DNA from: Anaerolineae bacterium
Lineage (GTDB): Bacteria; Chloroflexota; Anaerolineae; J102
Direction: 5' to 3'
NCBI GenBank assembly: GCA_026991225.1
Contig: JALXCB010000158.1
Coordinates: forward strand, 1 to 40,057
DNA length: 40,057 bases
Shown here: positions 17,445 to 35,908 of the stretch, piece after piece
Layout: every line of letters starts with the position of its first letter
Position numbering within the stretch: the first letter of the stretch is position 1
Translations under genes and position numbers: made by a program
The notes under the pieces: generated by a model
The model's input: only the letters and a program-made list of their open reading frames with translations
Told to the model about the DNA's origin: nothing
Databases searched by the model: none

Positions 17445-17740
17445 AAGTGCATATCCCAAAGACGATGACGGAGACGAGTAGTCCGTGACCGGGTCTCAGA
17501 GAGCTGCCGGGTGGTGCAAGGCAGTGACGCCGGACGGATGAAATCCCCTCCCGAGTCGCCCGTCCGAACCGCTTTCTGCGCAGTAAGTCGGGTCGGTTGG
17601 CCGCCGTTAGAGGCCGGTATTCAGTAATCAGTGCTGAAGGCTGGATGCTGAATCATGGAGGTCGCGGTCGCGAGGCCGCGGCGAATCCAGGTGGCACCAC
17701 GAGCGCCCCCTCGTCCTGGAACGAGCGGGCGTTTTTTCTT
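17445..17740 (+). ncRNA. T-box leader upstream of serS
   Basis: The ~330-nt untranslated leader has T-box landmarks: a stem I region with GACGGAGACGAG and CTCAGAGAGCTGCCGGGTGG, a TGAAATCCCCTCCCGAG segment that would hold the specifier loop, and the T-box sequence AATCCAGGTGGCACCACG at 17684-17701, complementary to the tRNA acceptor end. A terminator stem follows (CGCCCCCTCGT 17704-17714 with ACGAGCGGGCG 17721-17731, then six T). Uncharged tRNA should favour anti-termination and serS expression. A TCC (Ser) triplet at 17544-17546 is the likely specifier, though an overlapping ATC cannot be excluded without folding. T-box control of aminoacyl-tRNA synthetases is established knowledge; the specifier call is inference. 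Confidence 0.82.
17704..17737 (+). terminator. Regulated intrinsic terminator of the T-box
   Basis: An 11-bp stem with one mismatch, a loop of CCTGGA and a following run of six T. The 5' side starts directly after the T-box sequence, which is the normal arrangement in which the anti-terminator competes for the same bases. Confidence 0.8.
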
Positions 17741-25020: not shown

Positions 25021-25049
25021 TTGGCAGACGGGGCGGAAATCGCTATAAT
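25021..25049 (+). promoter_or_regulatory. Promoter of the left tRNA-Thr gene
   Basis: TTGGCA (25021-25026), a 17-bp spacer and TATAAT (25044-25049) lie just upstream of the left tRNA copy and outside the 80-bp repeat, so this is host DNA. No terminator follows the left tRNA, so transcription can continue into the integrase gene at 25216. Confidence 0.75.
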
Positions 25050-25058
25050 TATACATGC

Positions 25059-25138
25059 AAACGCCACCCTAGCTCAGCCGGTAGAGCAACGCACTCGTAA
25101 TGCGTCGGTCGCCGGTTCGAATCCGGCGGGTGGCTCCT
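25059..25138 (+). repeat. Left attachment repeat (attL)
   Basis: Identical over 80 bp to 35800-35879; the match ends at 25058 (C versus A) and 25139 (T versus G). It contains the entire tRNA gene plus 4 bp upstream and 3 bp downstream. The strand-exchange point lies somewhere inside it and cannot be placed more exactly from sequence. Confidence 0.92.
25063..25135 (+). tRNA. tRNA-Thr(CGT), left copy
   Basis: 73 nt folds as a full cloverleaf: acceptor GCCACCC/GGGTGGC, D stem GCTC/GAGC, anticodon stem ACGCA/TGCGT with loop CTCGTAA (anticodon CGT at 25096-25098), variable loop CGGTC, T stem GCCGG/CCGGC with loop TTCGAAT, discriminator T. CCA is not encoded. It has the host promoter upstream and the element's integrase downstream, and is probably the functional copy. 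Confidence 0.95.
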
Positions 25139-25140
25139 TT

Positions 25141-25187
25141 GCACAACATGTTGGGGTTGGGTGCAAATAAGCCACAAGGTGTAGTGG
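25141..25187. promoter_or_regulatory. Two 16-bp palindromic sites, left end (P1, P2)
   Basis: P1 GCACAACATGTTGGGG (25141-25156) and P2 CCACAAGGTGTAGTGG (25172-25187) match the right-end site CCACAACATGTTGTGG at 14 and 13 of 16 positions. Their centres are 31 bp apart, as for the right-end pair. The pair starts 2 bp inside the tRNA repeat. Probable binding sites for a recombinase or directionality factor; the role is inferred. Confidence 0.7.
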
Positions 25188-25189
25188 GT

Positions 25190-25214
25190 GCGCCTCTCGA
25201 ACCGCCGGAGGCGC
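25190..25214 (+). promoter_or_regulatory. Hairpin covering the integrase ribosome site
   Basis: GCGCCTC (25190-25196) is complementary to GAGGCGC (25208-25214), and the second arm contains most of the GGAGG Shine-Dalgarno sequence of the GTG start at 25216. An 11-nt loop separates the arms. If formed, it would hide the ribosome site and lower integrase translation. Confidence 0.5.
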
Positions 25215-25215
25215 T

Positions 25216-26157
25216 GTGGCCAAAAACCACCGAACCCAAAACGCCCAACTGTCCTTGATGGAGGCCGTTGAAGCCTTCATCTTGGATGGTTTGGCGCGCC
25301 GTCTATCACCGCATACGTTAGGGATTTATCGGGAAAAGCTATCGCATTTCATCACATGGGCCGAGTCGCAGCAAATCGAGACGATGGCCCATGTGGACGC
25401 GCGCGCCCTACGCCTTTATCTTGTCCACCTGCAAGAGACGGGCCATAACGCCGGTGGACAGCACACCCACGCCCGCATCCTTCGGGCCTGGCTCAATTTC
25501 CTGGAAGCGGAAGGGCTCATCATGGATTCGCCCATGCGCCGGGTGAAAATGCCGCGATTGCCGAAGCCCCAGCCGGACGTGTTGACGCGGGAGGAGGTGC
25601 AAAAGCTGCTGGATGCTGCGCAGAACAACCGGGACAAGGCGCTGATTCTGGCCCTGCTGGACACGGGCGCGCGTGTGTCTGAATTCGTGGCCCTGAACGT
25701 GGGCGACGTGGACGCGTCTGGGGCTGTGCAAATCCATCATGGCAAGGGAGATAAGGCCCGCACTGTCTATCTTGGCTACAAGGCCCTGAAGGCGCTCAGA
25801 CGTTGGCTGTGGGAGCGTGAGGACGCCTACACGCTCGATTCTCCCTTGTGGACGTCCCTTCACCACCCTGAGCGCGGCGTGAGGCTCACCACCAACGCCG
25901 TGCGCCTCATCCTTGTCCGCCTGGGGCAACGGGCGAAGTTGACACGCCGCATCTCGCCCCACATGTTCCGCCGCACGTTTGCGCTGTGGTGTCTGCGCGA
26001 TGGGATGGATATCTACACCCTGGCCCGCCTCATGGGCCATGCCGACATTGCCACCTTACGCCATTATCTGGCCCTGGCCGAGATGGACGCCGCGGCCGCG
26101 CACCGACGACATGGGCCAGTGAACGGCTATCTTAGCTCACAGGAGGGAGACTCATGA
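25216..26157 (+). CDS. Tyrosine recombinase, left integrase
   Basis: 313 residues, GTG start with GGAGG 5 bp upstream. The N-terminal SAM-like DNA-binding domain (about 12-100) reads AFILDGLARRLSPHTLGIYREKLSHF. The catalytic domain has the full set R153 (DTGARVSEF), K177 (HGKGDKART), H249 and R252 (SPHMFRRTF), H275 (MGHADIATL) and the nucleophile Y284. It resembles XerC/D-type integrases and should act on the tRNA-Thr attachment site. It lies 77 bp after the left tRNA and overlaps the next gene by ATGA. In the integrated state it can be read from the tRNA promoter; in the circle, from the right-end promoter. Confidence 0.93.
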   Translation: MAKNHRTQNAQLSLMEAVEAFILDGLARRLSPHTLGIYREKLSHFITWAESQQIETMAHVDARALRLYLVHLQETGHNAGGQHTHARILRAWLNFLEAEGLIMDSPMRRVKMPRLPKPQPDVLTREEVQKLLDAAQNNRDKALILALLDTGARVSEFVALNVGDVDASGAVQIHHGKGDKARTVYLGYKALKALRRWLWEREDAYTLDSPLWTSLHHPERGVRLTTNAVRLILVRLGQRAKLTRRISPHMFRRTFALWCLRDGMDIYTLARLMGHADIATLRHYLALAEMDAAAAHRRHGPVNGYLSSQEGDS

Positions 26158-26630
26158 GCCGATGGCGCAACACAACCGACGTCCTGCCCCCTGAGGGCGT
26201 GCCTATCATTGCCCGCTGGCCCGATGGCGCAACGCACCACGCCATCCTTCACCAGACGCCCGAGGCTGTCATCTGGGAGGTGGAAGGGGACAAAGAGACG
26301 CCGCCCGAGGCGTGGCGTTACGCGGGCCATGAGGCCGCCGGACTCATGAAAGCCAATCTCGCCAAGTCCTGGTGGTATCCCGCTATGGGGTTGTTTGTGG
26401 GCGGCCTGATTGCCATGGCCGCGCCCCTGGGCGGACTGCTCCTCATCGGGGGCGTGCTGGCTGTGTGGATTCTCTTTTCAGCCTTCCAGAGCGCCGGGGA
26501 GGCTGTGGCCGCCCGCCGCGGGGGCCTGTCCGGCCTGCTGCTGGGCGCGTTTGTGGCCCTGGCCCCGATGGCCACCATCATTGCCGCGTGTCTGGCCTTT
26601 GTCGTGCACCTATGGAGGTTTTACCAATGA
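26154..26630 (+). CDS. Membrane protein of unknown function, translationally coupled to integrase
   Basis: 158 residues. The soluble N-terminal half reads RWRNTTDVLPPEGVPIIARW...HHAILHQTPEAVIWEVEGD, a small beta-rich fold loosely like domains that begin W...LPPEG. The second half has three or four hydrophobic segments, including YPAMGLFVGGLIAMAAPLGG and then LLLIGGVLAVWILFSAF, and ends at FVVHLWRFYQ. Its ATG overlaps the integrase stop by 4 bases, and its own stop overlaps the next gene by 4 bases. The coupling puts two membrane proteins in the integrase operon; a role in surface exclusion or membrane anchoring is only a guess. Confidence 0.7.
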   Translation: MSRWRNTTDVLPPEGVPIIARWPDGATHHAILHQTPEAVIWEVEGDKETPPEAWRYAGHEAAGLMKANLAKSWWYPAMGLFVGGLIAMAAPLGGLLLIGGVLAVWILFSAFQSAGEAVAARRGGLSGLLLGAFVALAPMATIIAACLAFVVHLWRFYQ

Positions 26631-27109
26631 GCAAGCGCAAGTCCACCATCATCGAATTGAAGCCCGTTTCATCCCTGGATGACCCCAACGCGCCCCAAAC
26701 CTATGTCCCCGTGCGCGCCCCCGACGCCGGGCCGGGCGACTTGGCAACGGTGGACGCGGCCGCGTTGGCGGAACGGCAAATGACAGCCCAGCCCGTGGTG
26801 GAAAAGCTGGTTGGCAGTTATCAAGACCGCGCCATCGGCTTCTCTATCAAGACGTGGCAGGTGTCGCTTTTGTTTGGCGTCATCGCCTGGCTGTTGGCCC
26901 GCGTGGGCGCGGGCGTGCCCCTGTTCAGCGTGCGGGCACTGCTCATCCTTGCCCTGGGCGCGGGCGTGGTGTGGTTTGCCGCGTTCGCCTTGGACTTGCT
27001 GCTATCGCCCGCGGGGGTGGCGTGGTACAAGGCCCGTCGCTTCTGGAATTACATGGACAGGGAGCAGAAGGAACGCTTCGACTACTGGCGCAGCCTGCGC
27101 CGGGACTAA
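26627..27109 (+). CDS. Membrane protein of unknown function
   Basis: 160 residues, with GGAGG before the ATG and a 4-base overlap with the previous gene. A polar, partly disordered N-terminal part (about 1-75) contains LKPVSSLDDPNAPQTYVPVR. Two hydrophobic helices follow (about 85-103 and 108-130, with LFGVIAWLLARVGAGVPL and LLILALGAGVVWFAAFALDLLL). A basic and aromatic tail, WYKARRFWNYMDREQKERFDYW, comes last. I do not recognise a family. Together with the previous gene it may form one membrane complex. Confidence 0.65.
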   Translation: MSKRKSTIIELKPVSSLDDPNAPQTYVPVRAPDAGPGDLATVDAAALAERQMTAQPVVEKLVGSYQDRAIGFSIKTWQVSLLFGVIAWLLARVGAGVPLFSVRALLILALGAGVVWFAAFALDLLLSPAGVAWYKARRFWNYMDREQKERFDYWRSLRRD

Positions 27110-27140
27110 ACCCATCTCTCACCCAAGGAGGCTTTTTCTC

Positions 27141-27446
27141 ATGGAACGCATCCAAATGCAACGCATCATCGACGGCATCCGCTACGACACCGAGAAGGCG
27201 ACTCTCATCGCTCACAATGTCTTTTGGGACGGCCACAACTTCGAGCGACATGGGCGCAACACGTGGCTTTATCGCACGCCCAACGGGCGTTACTTCACCG
27301 TGACGGGCACCCTGTGGCAGGGGGAGCGGGACACGCTGCGCCCTGTGGACGAAGAAGAAGCCCGCCGTCTGTACGAAACCATGTTGCCCGAGCATGAAGT
27401 GCCCTACGAAGAGGCGTTTCCCCATATCACCATCCAAGACGCGTGA
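27141..27446 (+). CDS. Small hypothetical protein, phage/plasmid type
   Basis: 101 residues with a strong AAGGAGG site. The sequence IIDGIRYDTEKATLIAHN...NTWLYRTPNGRYFTVTGTLW resembles small proteins often seen in phages and plasmids (pattern GxxYdTekA...LYrTpxGxyF). Their function is unknown. A C-terminal acidic helix follows. It is the first of three small unknown genes before the gap at 28379. Confidence 0.65.
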   Translation: MERIQMQRIIDGIRYDTEKATLIAHNVFWDGHNFERHGRNTWLYRTPNGRYFTVTGTLWQGERDTLRPVDEEEARRLYETMLPEHEVPYEEAFPHITIQDA

Positions 27447-27454
27447 GGTGAATC

Positions 27455-27775
27455 ATGAACCGAATGATGGTTTCTTGCTACAAAGGATTGGCCCCGGTAT
27501 CGTTTCCCGCGGATTGGATTGAGGGAATCGACTATGAGCATAGTTTTGCCGCCGCGGGAGGACGGGCGCAGATACGTTTCCCTAATGGCAAGGCGTTTGA
27601 GGTTTGGGTGACATCACCGCCCGACTTCGGCAAAGTGGAGCGCCATGTCCGACGCCTGTCTGATGAGGAGATTGCCCGCATTCCCTGGGGGCCTTTCTGT
27701 CCGCCGTGGGAGAGCTACCAAACGGCCAAGCTGTTTGGCCACGCTGCGCCCATCGAGTTGGATAAGGTGGATTGA
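27455..27775 (+). CDS. Small hypothetical protein
   Basis: 106 residues; GAGGTG precedes the ATG. The protein looks like a compact beta-rich fold (VSFPADWIEGIDYEHSF...RAQIRFPNGKAFEVWV) followed by a helix VERHVRRLSDEEIARIPWG. It starts 8 bp after the previous gene, so it is in the same transcript. No family recognised. Confidence 0.6.
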   Translation: MNRMMVSCYKGLAPVSFPADWIEGIDYEHSFAAAGGRAQIRFPNGKAFEVWVTSPPDFGKVERHVRRLSDEEIARIPWGPFCPPWESYQTAKLFGHAAPIELDKVD

Positions 27776-27835
27776 CAACCCCTCTCGCCGCCGCCGTGGC
27801 CCCGAGGCGGACAAAGTATCGGGGCGGAGAATGTC

Positions 27836-28378
27836 ATGGACAGACAAATCAGCGCCTTCTACGCCCGCAAGCCCGAGGTGCGCCGGGAGAGCCGCACGGT
27901 GTACCGCAAGGCCCACCAGCGGGCCAAGAAAAAGGCGGAGAGCCTTTCGCGATTGGCCAAGGCGAGGGCCGCCGCGGAACTCGCCCACGAAGCCCTGCAC
28001 GCGGTGGCCGTGTTGGCCTATGAAACTTTGAAGGATGGCACGCCCGTGAACGTGGACCCAGTGACGGGCGATTTGCTGGTAGTCGCGCCCTGGAGCTCGA
28101 AACGATATCACGAGTATGGGCTGCGCCGTTCTGAGGCGGACGTGCTACGGGCCTATCTGCTGCAATTGCAAGCCCTGGCGCGAAAGGGGAAGACGGCCCT
28201 TCCGCCCCTGTTTACCTTCGACGTGGTGAGCCGCCGTTGGGCCGTGAACAAAGCCGACTATCCCACCTTCGAGGCTGCGGAGCGCTGGCTGGCCAGATAC
28301 CAGCTCACGCCCGAAGCGTGGCTTCAGTGGCGCGACCATATCCGCAAGAAGCGCCGGAAGTGGCGGAAGAAGGGGTGA
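27836..28378 (+). CDS. Hypothetical basic protein
   Basis: 180 residues, strongly basic at both ends (RKAHQRAKKKAESLSRLAKA near the N-terminus; RDHIRKKRRKWRKKG at the C-terminus), with a helical centre. The charge suggests nucleic-acid contact, but no known domain is visible. GGAG lies upstream of the ATG. It closes the integrase-proximal gene series; the next gene has its own promoter. Confidence 0.55.
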   Translation: MDRQISAFYARKPEVRRESRTVYRKAHQRAKKKAESLSRLAKARAAAELAHEALHAVAVLAYETLKDGTPVNVDPVTGDLLVVAPWSSKRYHEYGLRRSEADVLRAYLLQLQALARKGKTALPPLFTFDVVSRRWAVNKADYPTFEAAERWLARYQLTPEAWLQWRDHIRKKRRKWRKKG

Positions 28379-28482
28379 ACCACGCCGCGCACGGTGTGAA
28401 CCAACCCCCGCGCCCCACCGGGCAAAGGGTGGACTAAACCCGCCCACAACGAAACGCAATCCGACCCGTTCCCTTTTTTAGC

Positions 28483-28491
28483 TGATATAAT
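28483..28491 (+). promoter_or_regulatory. Extended -10 promoter before the 231-residue gene
   Basis: TGATATAAT at 28483-28491 is a perfect -10 box with the extended TGN motif; the -35 region is weak, as is usual for this type. It stands in the 168-bp gap 28379-28546, which otherwise holds nothing recognisable. Confidence 0.6.
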
Positions 28492-28546
28492 AGACTTCTC
28501 TAGCCAAATCTGGGCAACATAATCAATACTGAAAGGAGAACCTGCC

Positions 28547-29242
28547 ATGCCAAACAAGCAAAGGATATTCCCCGATTATCACGAGGTGAAGGCAATGTAC
28601 AACCGTGGCGAGCCCGATGGATGGGAGCCCGTGAAGGGCAAAAAAGCGTTCGTTAAAAAATGCTTCGCAAGAGAATTGCGAGCAGCCGGTTATGAATTGC
28701 CGCCCACATTTTCGGACGATGATTTGGTGGAATTGGAAACGTCTATAGAGACTTATGTTTTTCGTTTCGAAGACGAAGTCATTGACCCAGAACAAAATAA
28801 GGTTGTTTCCAGAATAGAAATCGAGGGGCCTCAAGAGATATTGCCCAGAGTCATTGAGGAAGAATTTGGCGGCCTTATTCAAGTACTGAAAAGTACGTAT
28901 GTTGACCCTATGAAAAGCATCGGACAGGCAATAAAAGACATGAGCCAAAGCTTGAAAAGGGACATTGTTGTACGTCTCAGGAAAAGCCCCAGCAATCTAT
29001 GGGAGATTAAAGCGATACCCAAAAAGCGTCCTGGGGGTAGACCGCCCTTAAAACACATTACGAAAGGACTTGAACTTGTCGATAATGGCATGACACCCCC
29101 CGAGGCATTCGCGAAGCTGGTGGAGAATGGCGACATCTCAATAGAGGGAGCAACGAACTTCGAGTATCAGCGCAATTACGAAGAAGAAGAAAGAAAATTC
29201 AGCGAATCCATTAAAAAAAGAAAGTCTAGACGCGGCGTGTGA
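28547..29242 (+). CDS. Hypothetical protein with AT-hook-like motif
   Basis: 231 residues, AAGGAG before the ATG. Base composition is clearly more AT-rich than the flanking genes, which suggests separate acquisition. The N-terminal two thirds is acidic and helical. Near residue 165 comes IPKKRPGGRPPLK, similar to an AT-hook (K/R-P-x-G-R-P). A helix KHITKGLELVDNGMTPPEAF and a very charged tail EEEERKFSESIKKRKSRRG follow. Minor-groove DNA binding is plausible; the function is otherwise unknown. It lies upstream of the copy-control module and might be an element regulator or cargo. Confidence 0.6.
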   Translation: MPNKQRIFPDYHEVKAMYNRGEPDGWEPVKGKKAFVKKCFARELRAAGYELPPTFSDDDLVELETSIETYVFRFEDEVIDPEQNKVVSRIEIEGPQEILPRVIEEEFGGLIQVLKSTYVDPMKSIGQAIKDMSQSLKRDIVVRLRKSPSNLWEIKAIPKKRPGGRPPLKHITKGLELVDNGMTPPEAFAKLVENGDISIEGATNFEYQRNYEEEERKFSESIKKRKSRRGV

Positions 29243-29291
29243 TAATGTTCTTCTGATTTGAGTTTGTCCCCTTTTTGTCCCCCTTTCATTT

Positions 29292-29313
29292 TGCGATAAT
29301 GAGTGTAACACAC
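29292..29313 (+). promoter_or_regulatory. Promoter and possible operator of the RHH gene
   Basis: TGCGATAAT (29292-29300) is an extended -10 box. Directly downstream, at the expected start of transcription, is GTGTAACAC (29303-29311), a symmetric site followed by ACTGTAT. A small ribbon-helix-helix repressor acting on its own promoter would bind a site like this. Upstream lie two similar TTTGTCCCC tracts. Confidence 0.45.
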
Positions 29314-29354
29314 TGTATTTTTCAATCCACCCTTTCATTTTTGGAGAAGCGTCC

Positions 29355-29513
29355 ATGTCCACCCCGATTAAAACTGTACGCATTCCCCCGTCTCTACGCG
29401 AGGCCATCCGCATCGAAGCACAGAAGCAAGGTAGCAATGAGAGTGACATTATCCGCCGGGCGCTGCGCGAACACTTGCGCACCCAATCCCAACACAAGGA
29501 GAACTCCCAATGA
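29355..29513 (+). CDS. Small ribbon-helix-helix repressor, CopG-like
   Basis: 52 residues with GGAGA upstream of ATG 29355. The beta strand PIKTVRIPPSLREAIRIEAQ, a turn KQGSNES and the helix DIIRRALREHLRTQ form the Arc/MetJ/CopG ribbon-helix-helix fold. Such proteins dimerise and bind short palindromes. Its position before an antisense RNA and the replication gene is that of CopG in pLS1/pMV158-type plasmids, where CopG represses the joint copG-rep promoter. The stop overlaps the next start by ATGA. Assignment as a copy-number repressor is inference from layout and fold. Confidence 0.8.
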   Translation: MSTPIKTVRIPPSLREAIRIEAQKQGSNESDIIRRALREHLRTQSQHKENSQ

Positions 29514-30043
29514 ACGCCACAAAAAAAGCCCCGTGGGCAGACGGGGCGACACTAAGAGGGGCAATGCGAAGCTTTGCTTCTGCCCCCATTGTAGCAGATG
29601 ACGCGCGCGGCGTCAAGGGTCGCGGCGTGCCCATCTACGTGAACGGGCGCGCTGTGGGCCATGTCGAGGGCGACACGTTCTACAAGACGCTGCGGGCGTC
29701 TGTCCACTTCCTGAAGCGCCCGCCCGCTATCGCCTTCGACGTGTCCAGCCTTTTCGACGCCCAGGACGCGGGCGCAACAAAGGTGCATATCACTGACCAG
29801 GAGACGGGGCGCGTGTATGTAGCCCGCATCGCCGACATTCTGCGGGATGGTCGCCGGTTCAACCGGGGCTTTGGCGACCAGGTTTACTATCTGCTGACCC
29901 GCTGGCGACACCCCGACGCACCGCAGCAAATGACCCTCTTCGACGCCCTCGAATGTGGGGAGGCCCGGCCCGGTCGCCAAACTAGAACGGGCCTCCCCCG
30001 AGGCGAAAGCCTCCTCTCGCGAGAGAAGGAGGTAGCCTCATGA
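29510..30043 (+). CDS. Hypothetical protein between copy control and primase
   Basis: 177 residues from ATG 29510, which overlaps the RHH stop; an in-frame ATG at 29564 with AAGAGG upstream would give 159 residues and better avoids the low-quality N-terminus. The core reads GVPIYVNGRAVGHVEGDTFYKTLRASVHFLKRPPAIAFDVSSLFDAQDAGATKVHITDQETGRVYVARI, a mixed alpha/beta domain. I recognise no family. The antisense RNA at 29521-29581 covers its 5' end including the second ribosome site. Its stop overlaps the primase start by ATGA, so its translation probably controls primase translation. Confidence 0.65.
   Translation: MNATKKAPWADGATLRGAMRSFASAPIVADDARGVKGRGVPIYVNGRAVGHVEGDTFYKTLRASVHFLKRPPAIAFDVSSLFDAQDAGATKVHITDQETGRVYVARIADILRDGRRFNRGFGDQVYYLLTRWRHPDAPQQMTLFDALECGEARPGRQTRTGLPRGESLLSREKEVAS
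29521..29581 (-). ncRNA. Predicted ~61-nt antisense RNA, copy-number control type
   Basis: On the minus strand a start near 29581 (7 bp after a TACAAT box) leads to a perfect intrinsic terminator at 29547-29521: GCCCCGT, loop CTGCCC, ACGGGGC, then seven T. The 5' part has a second hairpin GAAGC-AAA-GCTTC. The RNA is fully complementary to the 5' end of the gene at 29510, including the ATG at 29564 and its ribosome site, and to the + strand hairpin 29558-29586. Size, two-hairpin form and position next to a CopG-like gene are those of plasmid counter-transcribed RNAs. Not experimentally known. Confidence 0.65.
29588..29616 (-). promoter_or_regulatory. Promoter of the antisense RNA
   Basis: On the minus strand, TTGACG (29616-29611), a 17-bp spacer and TACAAT (29593-29588). 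Both boxes match the consensus at 5 of 6 bases with optimal spacing. It lies inside the coding sequence of the 177-residue gene, pointing towards the RHH gene. Confidence 0.65.
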
Positions 30044-32184
30044 TTGTATCACAGAGTGTGTTGCAACGCATCCCCAGCGAATTGCGCGAGCTGCGCCGCT
30101 GGATTGTGCATCGGGACAAAAAGCCCTGGAACGTGACCACCGACCGTCCCCTTGCGGGATGGCAGAAACCGGGGGCGTGGATGGGCTTCAAGGAAGCCAT
30201 TCCCCTTGTCGCCCAGGGGTTGGCCGATGGCCTGGGTTTTGTCTTCGCTGGCAACAACACGCCTTTTGTGGGCCTCGATTTGGATGATTGCGTGAGTTGG
30301 GAAGGCGGTGAGGCCACCCTGAACGCGTGCGCGTCGGGGATGCTTGACCTTTTCCCCGTCGCCTACTGGGAGTACTCGCCCAGCGGGAAGGGCCTGCATT
30401 GCATCGTGAAAGCCGCCCCGAGCGCCTGGGAGGGCGTGTCGAAGCTGAAGGTGCAAAACTTCGAGGATTGCACCAATGTTGAGATTTTCGCCAACGCCGG
30501 GTATCTCACCTTCACGGGCAACACGTGGCAGGATGAGGTCAGCTTCGAGGATTACACCGGGGAACTGGCCGAGCTGATTCGCGTTCTGGGGGCGCATAAG
30601 CGCCGGGGGCAGGTGAAACCTATCCCGGCATCCAATAACGGCCACAGAGCGCCTGAGAGCGCCCTAGAGGACGCCCTGACGCCCGAGGACGTGCGGGCCT
30701 GCCTGGACGTCATCCCAGCGGATGATTATGACGTTTGGATTAAGGTCGGGGCCGCGCTCAAAACCGAGCTGGGAGACGCGGGCTTCACGCTGTGGGATGA
30801 TTGGAGCGCCAAGAGTCCCAACTACGGGGACACCGTGGACAAATGGCCGCGGCTGCCCACCGGGGCGACCTACGGAAGCCTTATCGCCCTGGCCCGCGAC
30901 TTCCAACCTGGCTTTCTGACGCCCAGCGCCCAGGCCCTGAAGGCGCGAGCCAACGGAAACCGGCACATGACCAGGGGCAACAAGGGGGAACGCACAGAGA
31001 GAGAGCCGCCGCCTTGGCTGGGCCACCCGAAAGCTGAAGAGGCGCAGGCGTTACCCCCCGAACCGGCTATCTGGGAGCGCTGGGCCGCGGGAGCCCTGGG
31101 GTTGGCGCAGGCGTTGGAGGGGCGGGAATCGCCGCCCTGGGTGGTGGATAGATTCATTCGCGCTGGAAGCCTGAACATTGTCTATGGCGCGCCTGGCAGC
31201 ATGAAGTCCATGCTCCTGGCCGACCTGGCCCTTTGTGTGGCCGCGGGCCGTTCCTGGCTGGAAGGAAAACGCCTGAAAGACTGGATGAAAGCGGACGAAA
31301 CCCCCGGCATTCCCACCCTGGCCCGTCCTGTCATTTGGCTTGACCTGGACAATGGACGTCTGACCACCCTCGACCGGTTTGGGGCGCTGGCCCGCGGGCA
31401 TGGCGCGGCCCCGGACGCGCCACTGCATATCCTGGCCATGCCGCAGCCCTGGCCCACATTGGACAATGATGACAACGCCCGAGCGTTGGAACTTCTGACA
31501 TTAGCCTATAATGCCGGGCTAATCGTCATCGACAATCTAGGGTTGGTGGCCGGGCAAATCGAAGAAAACAACGCCCGCATGGCCTCAGTGATGGGCCGTC
31601 TTCGCAACCTGGCGGAGGAGACCGGGGCCGCGGTCGTGGTCATCCATCACCAGCGCAAAGCGGGCGTTTTGGGGCCAGGCGTGCGCCGTGGGGAGAGCCT
31701 GCGCGGGCATTCCAGTATCGAGGCGAGCCTGGACAGCGCCTTTCTAATCGAGCGGGAGGAGGGAAGCGATAAAGTGCAGCTAATTCCCACGAAAATTAGA
31801 AATGGGCCTTGGCCCAAGCCGCTGGTCGCCATCTTCACCTACACACATAAGCCTGATGGGAATGATTTGCAGGAAGCCCGTTTCTTCCAAACGGAGCCAG
31901 ATAAGGCGAACACAGAGACACGTTTGACCCTGGAAATCCTGCGCCATGCCGATGAGGCTGAAGGTAAAACGAAGCTGGTGGCCATGGTCCAAGTTGCATG
32001 GGGAGATGATGCTACCAGACCGGGCGAAAAGACCATTCGCGCCCATATCGAAAAGCTGGTAGCCAAGGGCCTTTTAGAGGAGGAGCCGCCACCGCCTGGA
32101 AAGGGTGCGCGGGCGGGAAAACGCTATCGTTTGACGCCAGATGGATGGCATTTTTTGAACGCCAACGGAGGCGAAAATGGCTGA
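30040..32184 (+). CDS. Primase-polymerase/helicase replication protein
   Basis: 714 residues. Residues 1-165 form an archaeo-eukaryotic-type primase-polymerase domain: metal ligands D80 and D82 in FVGLDLDDC, the SxH-type motif SPSGKGLH with H120, and a later VEIF...GYLTFTG. Residues 211-288 form a PriCT-2 domain (DVRACLDVIPADDYDVWIKVGAALK). Residues 375-600 are a RepA-like AAA ATPase with Walker A GAPGSMKS (383-390), LIVIDNLGLV as Walker B, and AVVVIHHQRKAG as sensor. The C-terminus is a winged helix (TIRAHIEKLVAKGLL). It should unwind and prime the element's own origin. ATGA overlap with the gene before; an iteron array follows. Confidence 0.88.
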   Translation: MIVSQSVLQRIPSELRELRRWIVHRDKKPWNVTTDRPLAGWQKPGAWMGFKEAIPLVAQGLADGLGFVFAGNNTPFVGLDLDDCVSWEGGEATLNACASGMLDLFPVAYWEYSPSGKGLHCIVKAAPSAWEGVSKLKVQNFEDCTNVEIFANAGYLTFTGNTWQDEVSFEDYTGELAELIRVLGAHKRRGQVKPIPASNNGHRAPESALEDALTPEDVRACLDVIPADDYDVWIKVGAALKTELGDAGFTLWDDWSAKSPNYGDTVDKWPRLPTGATYGSLIALARDFQPGFLTPSAQALKARANGNRHMTRGNKGERTEREPPPWLGHPKAEEAQALPPEPAIWERWAAGALGLAQALEGRESPPWVVDRFIRAGSLNIVYGAPGSMKSMLLADLALCVAAGRSWLEGKRLKDWMKADETPGIPTLARPVIWLDLDNGRLTTLDRFGALARGHGAAPDAPLHILAMPQPWPTLDNDDNARALELLTLAYNAGLIVIDNLGLVAGQIEENNARMASVMGRLRNLAEETGAAVVVIHHQRKAGVLGPGVRRGESLRGHSSIEASLDSAFLIEREEGSDKVQLIPTKIRNGPWPKPLVAIFTYTHKPDGNDLQEARFFQTEPDKANTETRLTLEILRHADEAEGKTKLVAMVQVAWGDDATRPGEKTIRAHIEKLVAKGLLEEEPPPPGKGARAGKRYRLTPDGWHFLNANGGENG

Positions 32185-32193
32185 TTTTTTGCC

Positions 32194-32366
32194 TGCCAAA
32201 CGGGGGGGCCGTTTGGCAACGGCTTGCCAAACGGGAATTGAGGGCCGTTTGGCACGTTTGGCAGCCGTTTGGTCACCGTTTGGCAGCGTTTGGCAAGCCG
32301 TCTTCCGTAGTGCGCAGACCCCGTTTGGCATTTGGCACACACTATATAGGTGTGTGTGCCAAACGG
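32194..32366. repeat. Iteron array with central dyad, candidate replication origin
   Basis: TGCCAAACGG or its complement occurs at 32194, 32209, 32225, 32245, 32255, 32265 (one change), 32276, 32287, 32321 and 32357, in both orientations, within 173 bp. The unit is 9-10 bp with about ten copies. Around the last two, TTTGGCACACAC (32331-32342) and GTGTGTGCCAAA (32352-32363) form a perfect 12-bp inverted repeat around TATATAGGT. The array follows the replication gene by 10 bp. Iterons plus an AT-rich dyad next to rep are typical of plasmid origins. A putative 76-codon frame through it is an artefact. Confidence 0.78.
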
Positions 32367-32411
32367 GAAACGCAACGCCCCCTTTTTTGTTGACCAAACC
32401 CACCTAGAGCA

Positions 32412-32630
32412 ATGGACGTGAGAGCACAAGTCGCGAAGGTGGACGCGCTTCTTGCCGAACTGCATCGCGAAGCATGGCGCACCCGTCCCCGTACCGAGCG
32501 ATTGCGCACCCTCGCCGAAGATTTGGCGTGGGAAATCGAGCCTTTGCGGGCGCGATTGTTGAACGAAGACCCCCTTCCTGACCTGCGGGCCTTGTCCCGC
32601 ACCCACAGAATAGGAGAGACCTACCCATGA
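32412..32630 (+). CDS. Small helical hypothetical protein
   Basis: 72 residues, ATG 32412, entirely helical and charged (DVRAQVAKVDALLAELHREA...RTERLRTLAEDLAWEIEPLR). It lies directly after the iteron array and overlaps the next gene by ATGA. Function unknown; there is no recognisable DNA-binding motif. Confidence 0.55.
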   Translation: MDVRAQVAKVDALLAELHREAWRTRPRTERLRTLAEDLAWEIEPLRARLLNEDPLPDLRALSRTHRIGETYP

Positions 32631-33295
32631 CCACCGAAGCACAACCCATCACCGAAGCCGAAGCCGAGGCCCTGCTGGCCCGTGTGGTCCGCGAGAAGGC
32701 CGCCACCGAAGCGCGCCTGAGCAAGACGCGCACCGAACTGGGAGAGCCGCTATACAAGCCCGAGCGACAAGCGCAAGCCGAAGCCAACGCCCGCGCACCC
32801 TTCGAGGCTGCCCTGAGCGCAACGCTGGCCCGGGCCCGCGCCGTAGAGGATGCGGCAACCGACGAACTGCGAAAGTTGGATGATATGCCCATCGCCCCAC
32901 TGCTGGACACCGACACGCTGCAACGCGCCGCCGCTATGCGCCCGTTTGCCGAAGATGAAGCCGAGCGCCTGGACGCTAAGCGCCTGGCTGCCCGTCTGGC
33001 CGCGCTGGACGGAAGCGACAAGGCCGCCGTGCTGGCATGGCGCACCGCTGCAGAAAAGCGCCTGGCTGTCATGATGGGCGACCTGGCAGAAAATCCGGCA
33101 CATGTAAGCCTGCGCCTCGCAATCAATGACTTGAAATCTGCGATTGCTAATCTGCGATTGCCGGAAGAGCGCGAGCTGGACGCCAGGCGCCGCAAGCTGA
33201 CAGACCAAAAACTATTGGCCCGGCAATTGCGCCTGCAGGCCGAAGCGCTGTCACCGGAAAAGCAAAAAGAAATCCTACAACGCTATGGAGTTTGA
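32627..33295 (+). CDS. Coiled-coil hypothetical protein
   Basis: 222 residues, very rich in Ala, Glu, Arg and Leu, and predicted to be almost wholly alpha-helical with coiled-coil character (ITEAEAEALLARVVREKAAT; AVEDAATDELRKLDDM; LTDQKLLARQLRLQAEAL). Such proteins near an HTH of terminase small-subunit type occur in phages and phage-derived elements, but no specific family is recognised. It is preceded by an ATGA overlap and followed directly by the HTH gene, so the genes 32412-34234 form one transcript. Confidence 0.6.
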   Translation: MTTEAQPITEAEAEALLARVVREKAATEARLSKTRTELGEPLYKPERQAQAEANARAPFEAALSATLARARAVEDAATDELRKLDDMPIAPLLDTDTLQRAAAMRPFAEDEAERLDAKRLAARLAALDGSDKAAVLAWRTAAEKRLAVMMGDLAENPAHVSLRLAINDLKSAIANLRLPEERELDARRRKLTDQKLLARQLRLQAEALSPEKQKEILQRYGV

Positions 33296-33296
33296 C

Positions 33297-33677
33297 ATGA
33301 CCGCGCAAAAGAAGACACAGCGAAAATTGTCAACAAAGCAACGAAAGGCTATTCGCGCCCTGCTGGCCGGAATGAACGTGAGCGACGCCGCAGACGCCGC
33401 AGACGTGGCCCGTGGTACGCTATACACCTGGTTTGACAATCCCGACTTTATGGCGGAACTGCGAGCCGCAGAGCAAAAGGCGCTAGATGACGTGGCGCGC
33501 CGTATGGCGGGATTGACAGATAAGGCCGTTAACGTGCTGAAAGCGCAGATGGAAGACGAGCGAAGCGCCCAGGCATTAAGGGCTGCCCGCACTGTCATAG
33601 ACGCCGCCTTGAGGCTGCGCGAGGCCGTGGCCCTGGAAGAGCGCATCGCCGCCCTTGAGGCCCAGGTGGAAAAATGA
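33297..33677 (+). CDS. HTH protein resembling phage terminase small-subunit-like (phBC6A51-type) proteins
   Basis: 126 residues from ATG 33297; an alternative ATG lies 12 bp upstream. A helix-turn-helix LSTKQRKAIRALLAGMNVSDAADAADVARGTLYTWFDNPDFMAELR is followed by a long helix with DDVARRMAGLTDKAVNVLKAQM and RAARTVIDAALRLREAVALEERIAALE. This pattern is found in small phage HTH proteins sometimes called terminase small-subunit-like. No terminase large subunit exists here, so it may be a regulator or partition factor, or help a helper phage package the element. ATGA overlap with the next gene. Confidence 0.65.
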   Translation: MTAQKKTQRKLSTKQRKAIRALLAGMNVSDAADAADVARGTLYTWFDNPDFMAELRAAEQKALDDVARRMAGLTDKAVNVLKAQMEDERSAQALRAARTVIDAALRLREAVALEERIAALEAQVEK

Positions 33678-34234
33678 GCATCTTAGCACGCCTGCGCCGC
33701 CTGGAAGCCGCCATCACGCCAATTGACGCGGGCCCATTCTACTATGCCGTAGAGGATGAGGCCGGCATCACGCCCGAGATGGCCGGGGCAAAGGTTTACA
33801 TCGGCATAAGCCCCCGAGACTGGGATGACACGCCGGAAGATGATGAGGAGGCCATGAGCATCAAAGCACGTCTGAAAACGATAGAAAAAAGCCTGGCAAG
33901 GCGCGCAAAGAAAGACACCCATCTTGTCATGGTCTGGCCGGAAGAGGCATCGGAAGATGAAGATATGCAACACATAAAAATGACCTGGGGCGACACGCCG
34001 GAAGATGACGAAGACGCCGTCACCTTGCGCGTGGTATATGACACGCCGCCCCAGGCCACTGAGACGCCCCAGAAGGCCACACAGACGCCTGAGACGCTTC
34101 CTAAGCCATCACCGCAGCCGTGGCAGCCGCCACAGAAGACGCGGGCCGAACTGCTAGAAGCAGAACTGGCAGCCGAAGAGCGCCGCATGAGACGTCACAA
34201 CATAGAAATGCAAAAGCGTTTGAGGCACCGCTAG
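33674..34234 (+). CDS. Hypothetical protein with tandem internal duplication
   Basis: 186 residues. The opening MSILARLRRLEAA recurs at residue 61 as MSIKARLKTIEKS, and the segment WDDTPEDDEEA recurs as WGDTPEDDEDA, so the protein is a tandem duplication. The second unit starts with an in-frame ATG at 33854 preceded by GAGGAGG, so a shorter product may also be made. A Pro/Gln/Thr linker (TPPQATETPQKATQTPETLP) and a charged helix follow. The function is unknown. Confidence 0.6.
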   Translation: MSILARLRRLEAAITPIDAGPFYYAVEDEAGITPEMAGAKVYIGISPRDWDDTPEDDEEAMSIKARLKTIEKSLARRAKKDTHLVMVWPEEASEDEDMQHIKMTWGDTPEDDEDAVTLRVVYDTPPQATETPQKATQTPETLPKPSPQPWQPPQKTRAELLEAELAAEERRMRRHNIEMQKRLRHR

Positions 34235-34446
34235 CCAAGCGCGCCGAAGGCTGGACTTACCAGCGGATTGCAGACGCCGCGGGCGTGAGCACAAAAACGG
34301 CCCAGCGGGTTGCCGGTGATGTAACTTTGTCACATGACAAAGTTGTTGGCCGCGACGGCAAGGCCCGCCCCGCCCGCTACGAGCGCCGGGCGCAAGCAAA
34401 GAACGCGCAAAGATTCGCGAATGGGTTTAGGGCATCGGGAGCTTGA
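34120..34446 (+). CDS. Putative ParB-type HTH DNA-binding protein
   Basis: 108 residues from GTG 34120, but only the part from about residue 36 looks conserved: LAKRAEGWTYQRIADAAGVSTKTAQRVAGDVTLSHDKVVGRDGKARPARYERRAQAK. EGWTYQRIADAAGVSTKTAQR is a helix-turn-helix, and VVGRDGKARPA is a common sequence after such domains in ParB-like and element regulators. The start is uncertain: the frame overlaps the preceding gene by 115 bp and has no good ribosome site, so a frameshifted fusion with the 186-residue protein is possible. A perfect 9-bp inverted repeat AACTTTGTC/GACAAAGTT (34323-34344) lies within it. Confidence 0.55.
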   Translation: MAAATEDAGRTARSRTGSRRAPHETSQHRNAKAFEAPLAKRAEGWTYQRIADAAGVSTKTAQRVAGDVTLSHDKVVGRDGKARPARYERRAQAKNAQRFANGFRASGA

Positions 34447-34495
34447 CAAACCCCGTTTTGAGGTGTATAATAGCTTATGAAAATGTATCTTTTCA
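34443..34495 (+). promoter_or_regulatory. Consensus promoter of the right integrase with dyad at +1
   Basis: TTGACA (34443-34448), a 17-bp spacer and TATAAT (34466-34471): a perfect consensus promoter. At the start point lies TGAAAA-N6-TTTTCA (34478-34495), a symmetric site that could be an operator. A promoter this strong would need repression in the quiescent state. Confidence 0.75.
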
Positions 34496-34520
34496 AAATC
34501 TATTGCACTGAGAGGACGCC

Positions 34521-35468
34521 ATGACGCACCTGCCCATCCCCACCCAAACCGCCGCCATCGAGCCGCACCGCGAGACGGCCAACCCCGCCCTTGTCTATCT
34601 CGCTTCCCTGCCCTCGCCCGAGTCCCGCCGCGTCATGCGCAGCGCGCTTGACGCCATCGCCCGCATGGTGAACCCCGAAGCCGCGGTGGAAACTTTCCCG
34701 TGGGCCTCGCTGCGTTTTGAGCATGTGGCCGCCATCCGCAGCGTCCTCATGGAACGCTACGCACCCGCCACCGCCAACCGTCATCTGTCCGCCCTCAAGG
34801 GCGTGCTCAAGGCCGCGTGGCAATTGGGCCTCATGTCCGACGCCGACTATATGCGGGCCGTGGACGTGAAAGGCGTCAAAGGCGAAACCTTGCCCACAGG
34901 CCGCATGTTGGACGCGTCCGAGGTGGCCGCGGTGGTGGCCGCGTGCAAAGCCGATAGCACCCCCGCGGGCGCGCGCGACGCCGCCCTGTTGGCCGTCATG
35001 CTGGCGGGAGGGCTGCGCCGGGCCGAAGTGGTGGGCCTCGACGTTGACGACTACAACCCTGAAACGGGCGAGCTCACCGTGCGGCATGGCAAAGGCCGCA
35101 AGGAGCGCATCGTGTGGCTCACCAACGGCGCCCGCCGGGCGCTGAACGCCTGGCTGGACGTGCGAGGCCGCGAACCCGGCCCGCTGTTCATGCCCATCAA
35201 TAAGGGCGGGCGCATCATTCCCAAACGGATGACTTCCCAAGCTGTTTACAACGTCCTGCGCAAGCGGGCCGAACAGGCGGGCGTCAAACCCTTCACACCC
35301 CACGACATGCGCCGCACTTTTGCCTCCACCCTTCTGGACAATGGCGCGGATTTGGCCGTGGTGTCCAAACTCATGGGCCATGCGAATATCACCACCACCG
35401 CCCGCTACGACAGGCGAGGCGAAGAGGCCAAGCGGGCCGCCGCGAGCCTGTTCCACTTCCCCTACTGA
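34521..35468 (+). CDS. Tyrosine recombinase, right integrase
   Basis: 315 residues, ATG 34521 with GAGAGG upstream. The N-terminal SAM-like domain (about 20-110) has RYAPATANRHLSALKGVLKA. The catalytic residues are complete: R166 (GGLRRAEVVGL), K191 (HGKGRKERI), H261 and R264 (TPHDMRRTF), H287 (LMGHANITTT) and the nucleophile Y296. It differs in sequence from the left integrase throughout, so the two are not a recent duplication. It ends 331 bp before the right repeat. It may serve integration, excision or resolution of replicated multimers. Confidence 0.93.
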   Translation: MTHLPIPTQTAAIEPHRETANPALVYLASLPSPESRRVMRSALDAIARMVNPEAAVETFPWASLRFEHVAAIRSVLMERYAPATANRHLSALKGVLKAAWQLGLMSDADYMRAVDVKGVKGETLPTGRMLDASEVAAVVAACKADSTPAGARDAALLAVMLAGGLRRAEVVGLDVDDYNPETGELTVRHGKGRKERIVWLTNGARRALNAWLDVRGREPGPLFMPINKGGRIIPKRMTSQAVYNVLRKRAEQAGVKPFTPHDMRRTFASTLLDNGADLAVVSKLMGHANITTTARYDRRGEEAKRAAASLFHFPY

Positions 35469-35474
35469 GCGCGT

Positions 35475-35503
35475 TTGACACCCGCGCGCGGGTGTGATAC
35501 AAT
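35475..35503 (+). promoter_or_regulatory. Outward promoter with an 18-bp palindrome
   Basis: TTGACA (35475-35480), a 17-bp spacer and TACAAT (35498-35503) with TGA just before it. The spacer and part of the -35 box form the perfect palindrome ACACCCGCGCGCGGGTGT (35478-35495), an obvious operator candidate. It points to the right end of the element. Confidence 0.75.
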
Positions 35504-35509
35504 CGAGCC

Positions 35510-35656
35510 ACGACATACAAAACGCCCCCGAGCGACGCCGAGAACGTCACCCGAGGGCTAACCCCAACCGCTGTGGGCGCAGCGGAGGGGCTACGAGAAT
35601 TCTAACAGAACTCGAAGCCAATCCCAAGCCCACAGCGAAGCCGCGGTGGGCTTTTC
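35510..35656 (+). ncRNA. Predicted structured leader or small RNA ending in a terminator
   Basis: From the predicted start near 35510 to the terminator is about 147 nt without a convincing gene. A hairpin CCGCTG/CAGCGG (35568-35585) is extended by CCCC/GGGG (35562-35565, 35587-35590). A terminator AGCCCAC...GTGGGCT (35627-35652) is followed by TTTT. CGCTGTGGGC (35569-35578) is also exactly complementary to GCCCACAGCG (35628-35637), which is the 5' side of the terminator. The three helices exclude one another, as in an attenuator or riboswitch. It could instead be a stable small RNA. Ligand or trigger unknown. Confidence 0.55.
35627..35656 (+). terminator. Intrinsic terminator of the right-end transcript
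   Basis: Seven base pairs AGCCCAC/GTGGGCT, one mismatch, three further inner pairs and a small loop, followed by TTTT. Its 5' side can alternatively pair with 35569-35578. Confidence 0.65.
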
Positions 35657-35749
35657 TGTATCAATGGCCTACCGTTTTCGGGCCTTGTTTTTCATGCGAT
35701 TTTGAACAGCGAACCACCCTAAAAAAGCCTTAACACCTACTTGACGCAC

Positions 35750-35796
35750 CTACTACATGTAGTGGTTTTATGAAGTCAAACCACAACATGTTGTGG
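35750..35796. promoter_or_regulatory. Two 16-bp palindromic sites, right end (P3, P4)
   Basis: P4 CCACAACATGTTGTGG (35781-35796) is a perfect palindrome; P3 CTACTACATGTAGTGG (35750-35765) is nearly so. Centres are 31 bp apart and P4 ends 3 bp before the repeat. This mirrors P1/P2 at the left end, so the four sites are arranged symmetrically about the element. Confidence 0.75.
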
Positions 35797-35799
35797 TAA

Positions 35800-35879
35800 A
35801 AACGCCACCCTAGCTCAGCCGGTAGAGCAACGCACTCGTAATGCGTCGGTCGCCGGTTCGAATCCGGCGGGTGGCTCCT
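35800..35879 (+). repeat. Right attachment repeat (attR)
   Basis: Identical copy of 25059-25138, offset 10,741 bp. It is followed by the host terminator at 35882, so the chromosome resumes here. Confidence 0.92.
35804..35876 (+). tRNA. tRNA-Thr(CGT), right copy
   Basis: Identical in all 73 positions to the left copy, anticodon CGT at 35837-35839. It lacks the host promoter; a poor TTGACG/TTTTAT pair (35741-35771, spacer 19) or read-through from the 35475 promoter are the only visible sources of transcription. It has the native terminator just downstream. Confidence 0.93.
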
Positions 35880-35881
35880 GC

Positions 35882-35908
35882 ATCCCGGCCCAATGGGTCG
35901 GGATTTTT
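35882..35908 (+). terminator. Intrinsic terminator of the host tRNA-Thr gene
   Basis: ATCCCGGCCC, loop AAT, GGGTCGGGAT and then T5: a 10-bp stem with one G-T pair. It starts 5 bp after the right tRNA copy, outside the element, and would end both tRNA and right-end element transcripts. Confidence 0.8.

Follow-up and report, generated by a model that had tools for sequence, protein, structure and literature searches.

Structure and integration site of the element

The 40,057-nucleotide stretch of DNA analysed here (the window; contig JALXCB010000158.1) comes from an Anaerolineae bacterium of the Chloroflexota and contains a 10.7-kb element bounded by perfect direct repeats of 80 bp, which have a separation of 10,741 bp and each enclose a complete tRNA-Thr(CGT) gene (Table 1). 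Sixteen plausible genes were observed between the repeats, all on the plus strand, including a tyrosine recombinase gene near each end, a replication module and an open reading frame (ORF) related to the small terminase subunits (TerS) of phages. An earlier note on this DNA had described the repeats with the full tRNA gene, two complete tyrosine recombinases, a primase-helicase, iterons and a ribbon-helix-helix (RHH) gene with an antisense RNA, and all of these features were recovered. Its description of the locus as a self-replicating integrative element agrees with the attachment (att) repeats, the replication module and the plasmid-like control.

A sister element of 13.7 kb was located in the same tRNA-Thr gene of another genome of the genus (G005, JALWZT010000153), with the left-half gene order and the primase-helicase kept. 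Such conservation of gene order at tRNA-Thr had been named in the earlier note as a check, and its occurrence in an Anaerolineae relative also supports the probable Chloroflexota host proposed there. An empty site, a further check, was found in the same-genus genome G004, which carries an identical tRNA-Thr with no element between the neighbouring genes. The left neighbour is a glycosyl hydrolase as in the window (75% identical), and the right neighbour is a thioredoxin gene, which in G005 follows the sister element; the joined flanks of the window aligned to this empty site across the tRNA. Judged from these alignments, the integration of the element at tRNA-Thr is real.

The 16-bp palindromic motif CCACAACATGTTGTGG was found in two copies to the left and two to the right of the tRNA core, with a spacing of 31 bp. 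The motif was kept in the sister element with a spacing of 31-32 bp and also in a third element from the genus (G002, at tRNA-Arg), there at the right end, a placement that fits what would be expected for recombinase arm sites. Int1, the recombinase adjoining the tRNA, is likely the integrase/excisase, and its homologues adjoin many different tRNA genes in Anaerolineae. The second recombinase, Int2, is not orthologous to Int2 of the sister (36% over the catalytic domain), which, together with the presence of one integrase at each end, could indicate two nested elements (Int1 and Int2) at one tRNA site instead of a single unit. We regard this as most improbable, given the single pair of att repeats, the one type of arm motif with equal spacing at both ends, and the recurrence of a second recombinase at the right end of the G017 and G002 elements.

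Table 1 Features of the tRNA-Thr element, with positions in the window; the sister element is L016
Feature	Position	Strand	Evidence and remarks
attL repeat with tRNA-Thr(CGT) 25063-25137	25059-25138	+	native-looking promoter TTGGCA-17-TATAAT at 25021-25049 kept
Left arm sites, GCACAACATGTTGGGG at 25141 and CCACAAGGTGTAGTGG at 25172	25141-25187		consensus CCACAACATGTTGTGG; 31 bp apart; same spacing in L016
Int1, tyrosine recombinase adjoining tRNA	25216-26157	+	PF00589 1.9e-34, SAM_1 3e-9; 86% to sister
Two small proteins, likely membrane (26154-26630, 26627-27109)	26154-27109	+	43% and 78% in sister
Three small conserved ORFs (27141-27446, 27455-27775, 27836-28378)	27141-28378	+	87-89% to sister
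AT-rich ORF, proposed cargo	28547-29242	+	45.5% GC vs 60% for element
CopG-like RHH repressor	29355-29513	+	RHH_1 3e-6
o7, conserved rep-operon protein	29510-30043	+	putative target of antisense RNA
Predicted antisense RNA over start of rep operon	29520-29616	-	promoter TTGACG-17-TACAAT 29616-29588, sigma-70-like
Primase-helicase, predicted replication initiator	30040-32184	+	PriCT_2 2.6e-13, AAA_25 1.5e-28, PHROG DNA primase 2e-25; 84% in sister
Predicted iteron origin	32194-32365		nine exact CGTTTGGCA copies in ~170 bp; palindrome TTTGGCACACACTATATAGGTGTGTGTGCCAAA 32331-32363
Two ORFs upstream of terS (32412-32630, 32627-33295)	32412-33295	+	
Small terminase (TerS)	33285-33677	+	N-terminal helix-turn-helix (HTH) and long helical hairpin; phrog_2538 2.2e-10; fold 2AO9
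o10	33674-34234	+	4-bp overlap with terS stop; in the position of the large terminase gene in phages
Small HTH ORF overlapping o10	34120-34446	+	HTH_23 0.0018, weak, below cut-off
Int2, second tyrosine recombinase, right end	34521-35468	+	PF00589 1.5e-35
Conserved structured noncoding RNA	35475-35660	+	own promoter TTGACA-17-TACAAT 35475-35503 and terminator
Right arm sites, CTACTACATGTAGTGG at 35750 and CCACAACATGTTGTGG at 35781	35750-35796		31 bp apart; kept in L016 and L126
attR repeat with tRNA-Thr(CGT) 35804-35878	35800-35879	+	terminator 35882-35904 after it

Replication module and small terminase

An RHH homologue is located upstream of Rep in the sister and in L092, as in the window. 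The predicted antisense RNA ends at an intrinsic terminator stem (29547-29528), and this placement of promoter and terminator recurred under strict criteria in two more relatives, the sister and L094; in three other relatives the promoter failed these criteria, some being similar by eye. In the window, the sister and a distant G035 element, the antisense -10 box ends 79, 82 and 83 nt, respectively, and the terminator 17-19 nt, into the first rep ORF. The layout of RHH gene, antisense promoter/terminator pair and rep operon is kept, with the antisense core sequence diverged between the sisters and the architecture unchanged, a combination that would resemble the incompatibility control of plasmids. 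In pMV158/pLS1, too, an RHH repressor precedes an antisense RNA that covers the beginning of the rep operon; the replicon controlled there is of the rolling-circle RepB type and here consists of a primase-helicase and iterons.

The sister lacks an o7 gene, but the start of o7 and the antisense module are fused in frame to its primase. The o7 fold weakly resembles the viral nuclease 2W8M (E 0.018, TM 0.34), a match too weak to be taken as a function call. Matches of the primase in phages and plasmids were partial, with less than 40% identity; the closest plasmid match was the AAA protein of plasmid III of Candidatus Promineifilum breve (L019, NZ_LN890657.1). This replicon carries capsid, minor-head and terminase genes and is therefore probably a phage or phage-plasmid. 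The iteron array lies directly behind the primase and is also present in the sister (L016 9392-9563).

The statement of the earlier note that capsid and transfer genes are missing held for the 16 ORFs scanned, but a packaging gene, the TerS ORF, had been overlooked. The PHROG search of this ORF returned terminase small subunit first, with further TerS families below, and the top eight PDB matches of its AlphaFold model, an HTH with a helical hairpin, were all to 2AO9, the phage protein phBC6A51 (E 0.07, probability 1.0). Relatives of the ORF were located directly upstream of the large terminase subunit (TerL) and portal genes in viral contigs L132 and L133, as confirmed by PHROG for L132, and directly upstream of a TerL-sized ORF in viral contig L134. 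On the basis of these matches, we assign the ORF to the phage TerS family. The gene that follows, o10, could encode a TerS-binding mimic of TerL. Similar small ORFs are found after terS in L096 and L105; we also observed that the N-terminal motif xRLxxLE of o10 recurs in both.

Related elements and mode of transfer

To place the element among its relatives, we compared it with other Int1 elements. The order of Int1, the next five genes and the primase is kept in the sister, mostly with 78-89% amino acid identity, the lowest value being that of the first small ORF after int1 (43%). The right halves are mostly different, and near the same end the sister carries a P27-type TerS (PF05119, 3e-16; phrog_83, 1e-22) that is unrelated to the window TerS. 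A P27-type TerS is also carried by the G011 element, and these two were the only PF05119 matches in 19 genomes, both inside Int1 elements.

Int1 homologues (E <= 1e-40) were present in 48 of 396 Anaerolineae genomes, and where the surroundings were retrieved, most adjoin a tRNA gene, of many kinds; no Int1 relatives were found in viral contigs. Elements bounded by repeats included those of G121 (75-bp tRNA-Arg repeats, 6.4 kb, with Int1, a resolvase and TerS), G047 (78-bp tRNA-Arg repeats, 8.2 kb) and G107 (42-bp repeat). The window TerS family recurs in the G121, G044, G053 and G002 elements. A fusion of prohead protease and HK97 major capsid protein is encoded in the G047 element (L095 7134-8726, minus strand), with no portal or TerL detected in its 8.2 kb. 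Replication genes vary, with an AAA_25 primase-helicase in the window, AAA_25 alone in G047 and G053, DUF3987 in G121 and a P4/D5-type helicase in G002; judging from these gene contents, replication modules are swapped among members around a common framework. RusA-like resolvases were observed in several members. Two tRNA-bounded Anaerolineae elements have an ORF of 360-385 amino acids adjoining the replication module (L105 10915-12072 and L103 11960-13048), the two being alike by eye only.

No TerL, portal or tail genes were found in the tRNA-bounded elements examined; the PHROG screen covered 57 ORFs from six elements and was read among the 25 commonest families listed, so that single structural matches are possible. 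Matches to phrog_2-type TerL in the genomes of relatives were located on contigs other than those with the elements. A TerS in the element, together with TerS or capsid genes in its family, makes packaging by a helper phage the leading explanation of movement, which sharpens the earlier note, where movement was left open with phage packaging as one option. Redirection of the helper terminase by a satellite would best explain the TerS/TerL pattern. One review takes the presence of terminase genes within a mobile element as a hint of mobilisation by phages (PMC11389934).

A different account would be a self-replicating integrative plasmid, in which the HTH protein is a regulator, the likeness to terminase is incidental, and transfer occurs by conjugation in trans or by transformation. 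The RHH gene, antisense RNA and iterons are plasmid-like control features, and a primase-helicase is present while structural genes are absent. However, Pfam scans of the 16 ORFs found no relaxase, FtsK/TraB or other transfer gene, relatives of the window TerS adjoin TerL in phages, and the bona fide P27 TerS of the sister and G011 and the capsid fusion of G047 would not be needed by a plasmid; we consider this account unlikely. Actinomycete integrative and conjugative elements (AICEs) combine tRNA integration with autonomous replication, some with a Rep of the prim-pol type, and had been used as a comparison in the earlier note. The comparison failed and the AICE and conjugative readings were rejected, since the window element has no TraB/FtsK-type or relaxase gene and carries TerS instead.

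The phage-type integrase, primase and TerS, and the PrimPol-AAA relatives in the Chloroflexota phage recorded as plasmid III, would also fit a prophage remnant left after deletion of the structural and TerL genes. Against this, the elements of several genera are small, with long tRNA repeats and intact ORFs, and in none of them were TerL, portal or tail genes found. Two species also share the core, mostly at 78-89% conservation, which would not be expected from random decay. We regard a remnant as very unlikely.

Satellite model and comparison with known systems

We consider it probable that the element is a phage satellite of the TerS type whose replication is under plasmid-like control. The element has an integrase, att repeats and a specific chromosomal site, its own replication module, and TerS without TerL, portal or tail (in the 16 window ORFs scanned; TerL genome-wide by phrog_2 only). 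In the best reading, it belongs to a new family of TerS-type satellites in Chloroflexota that works like the TerS-carrying Staphylococcus aureus pathogenicity islands (SaPIs) and other phage-inducible chromosomal islands (PICIs), outside the defined satellite families. Int1, probably with the CCACAACATGTTGTGG arm sites flanking the tRNA core, would integrate and excise the element at tRNA-Thr(CGT), with integration duplicating the whole tRNA. The excised circle would replicate from the iteron array by its own primase-helicase, restrained by the CopG-like repressor and by the antisense RNA, whose architecture is conserved. In the presence of a helper phage, the satellite TerS would recognise a packaging site in the satellite's DNA and recruit the helper's TerL, and satellite DNA would then fill helper capsids, as the gene content suggests. 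Int2 may, as a guess, resolve multimers or assist excision.

Several points weigh against this interpretation. The virion, the excision and the circular form are predictions from the sequence. No helper phage was found and phrog_2-type TerL is absent from the host genome; no capsid-size gene, interference gene or pac/cos site was identified in the element, and TerS was not seen in some Int1 elements, such as that of G107. The relatives come mostly from draft metagenome-assembled genomes, and several are truncated at contig ends. Pfam matches of the TerS ORF were to HTH_Tnp_1_2 and similar families; since the HTH is common to TerS and to transposase and regulator families, the function of TerS rests on fold, neighbourhood and sister evidence, and the fold match to 2AO9 is at E 0.07.

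TerS-carrying SaPIs divert packaging to a pac site of their own (PMC10690885). The window element resembles them in its integrase, its primase/replication module with adjacent iteron-type origin, its own TerS, its size of ~10 kb and its lack of TerL, capsid and tail genes. It differs in the tRNA integration site with whole-tRNA duplication, the CopG-like RHH with antisense RNA, the two tyrosine recombinases and the Chloroflexota host, and no Stl/AlpA or capsid-remodelling gene was recognised in it; regulator candidates in the window were the RHH and the weak HTH protein only, with an HTH_17/excisionase-like protein in the G121 member. P4-like satellites integrate at a tRNA site, as the window element does, and would also share helper packaging with it; a D5/P4-type helicase is found in the G002 member. 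They are described in one account as occurring in a plasmid or integrated state and being helper-packaged (PMC7552001). Packaging of P4 relies on the P2 terminase and on cos sites, and P4 encodes Sid (PMC10690885), whereas the window element has its own TerS and no family match to Sid, Psu or Delta.

The G047 relative, which has a protease and an HK97 capsid protein of its own, is reminiscent of capsid-forming PICIs (cf-PICIs), but these encode everything for head formation and packaging, with portal and both terminase subunits (PMC10690885), while no portal or TerL was found in the G047 element and family scans found no capsid, portal or TerL in the window element. Tycheposons, compared by description only, are likewise tRNA-bounded and have a tyrosine recombinase; they have been described as cargo carriers of 4-200 kb from marine bacteria (PMC10872708), and reviews connect them with phage satellites (PMC11389934, PMC10872708). 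We left the element outside PICI, P4-like, cf-PICI and AICE, as their defining features either were not found in it or are at most predicted for it.

At the right end, the noncoding RNA region (150 nt) exceeds the genes in conservation (95% to L016, 87% to G002:C46) and occurs in three genomes of the genus; the one match elsewhere was partial and covered 29 bp. It folds far better than shuffled sequences (z -5.2), and three pairs with changes on both sides in the alignment of three sequences are suggestive only. No match was found in Rfam, and none in the viral contigs searched. By eye, the GCTGTGGGC:GCCCACAGC stem and the terminator stem are mutually exclusive, and the RNA lies upstream of attR and, in the circular form, would lie upstream of int1. 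Among the remaining genes, the ORF at 27141-27446 matches phrog_38278 (2.5e-11), the ORF at 32412-32630 is 58% identical to a homologue from the G002 element, and the two likely membrane proteins had no match in the family scan. The AT-rich ORF was not found in the sister and is proposed to be a recent insertion or cargo gene. A reading of the cargo as a defence island was dropped, as ten proteins (nine from the window) gave no PADLOC match. Outside the element, a T-box leader was detected at 17456-17721 (RF00230, 108.9 bits).

More tentatively, and with less confidence than in the satellite assignment itself, these elements may form a widespread Anaerolineae family of satellite-plasmids that are tRNA-seeking and copy-controlled, with the RHH protein and fast-diverging antisense RNAs setting incompatibility groups, TerS or capsid genes swapped according to the helper, and a conserved right-end RNA in control of the life cycle or of the tRNA/int junction. 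The satellite types covered in a review come from well-studied bacteria, with recent additions from Cyanobacteria and Actinobacteria (PMC11389934), and our literature search found no paper linking phage-inducible chromosomal islands with Chloroflexi. An Anaerolineae satellite family with TerS exchange at the same tRNA and plasmid-type copy control would, if true, extend molecular piracy to another phylum. If this reading is true, the satellite TerS genes would also offer a way to search for helper phages of the mostly uncultured Anaerolineae.

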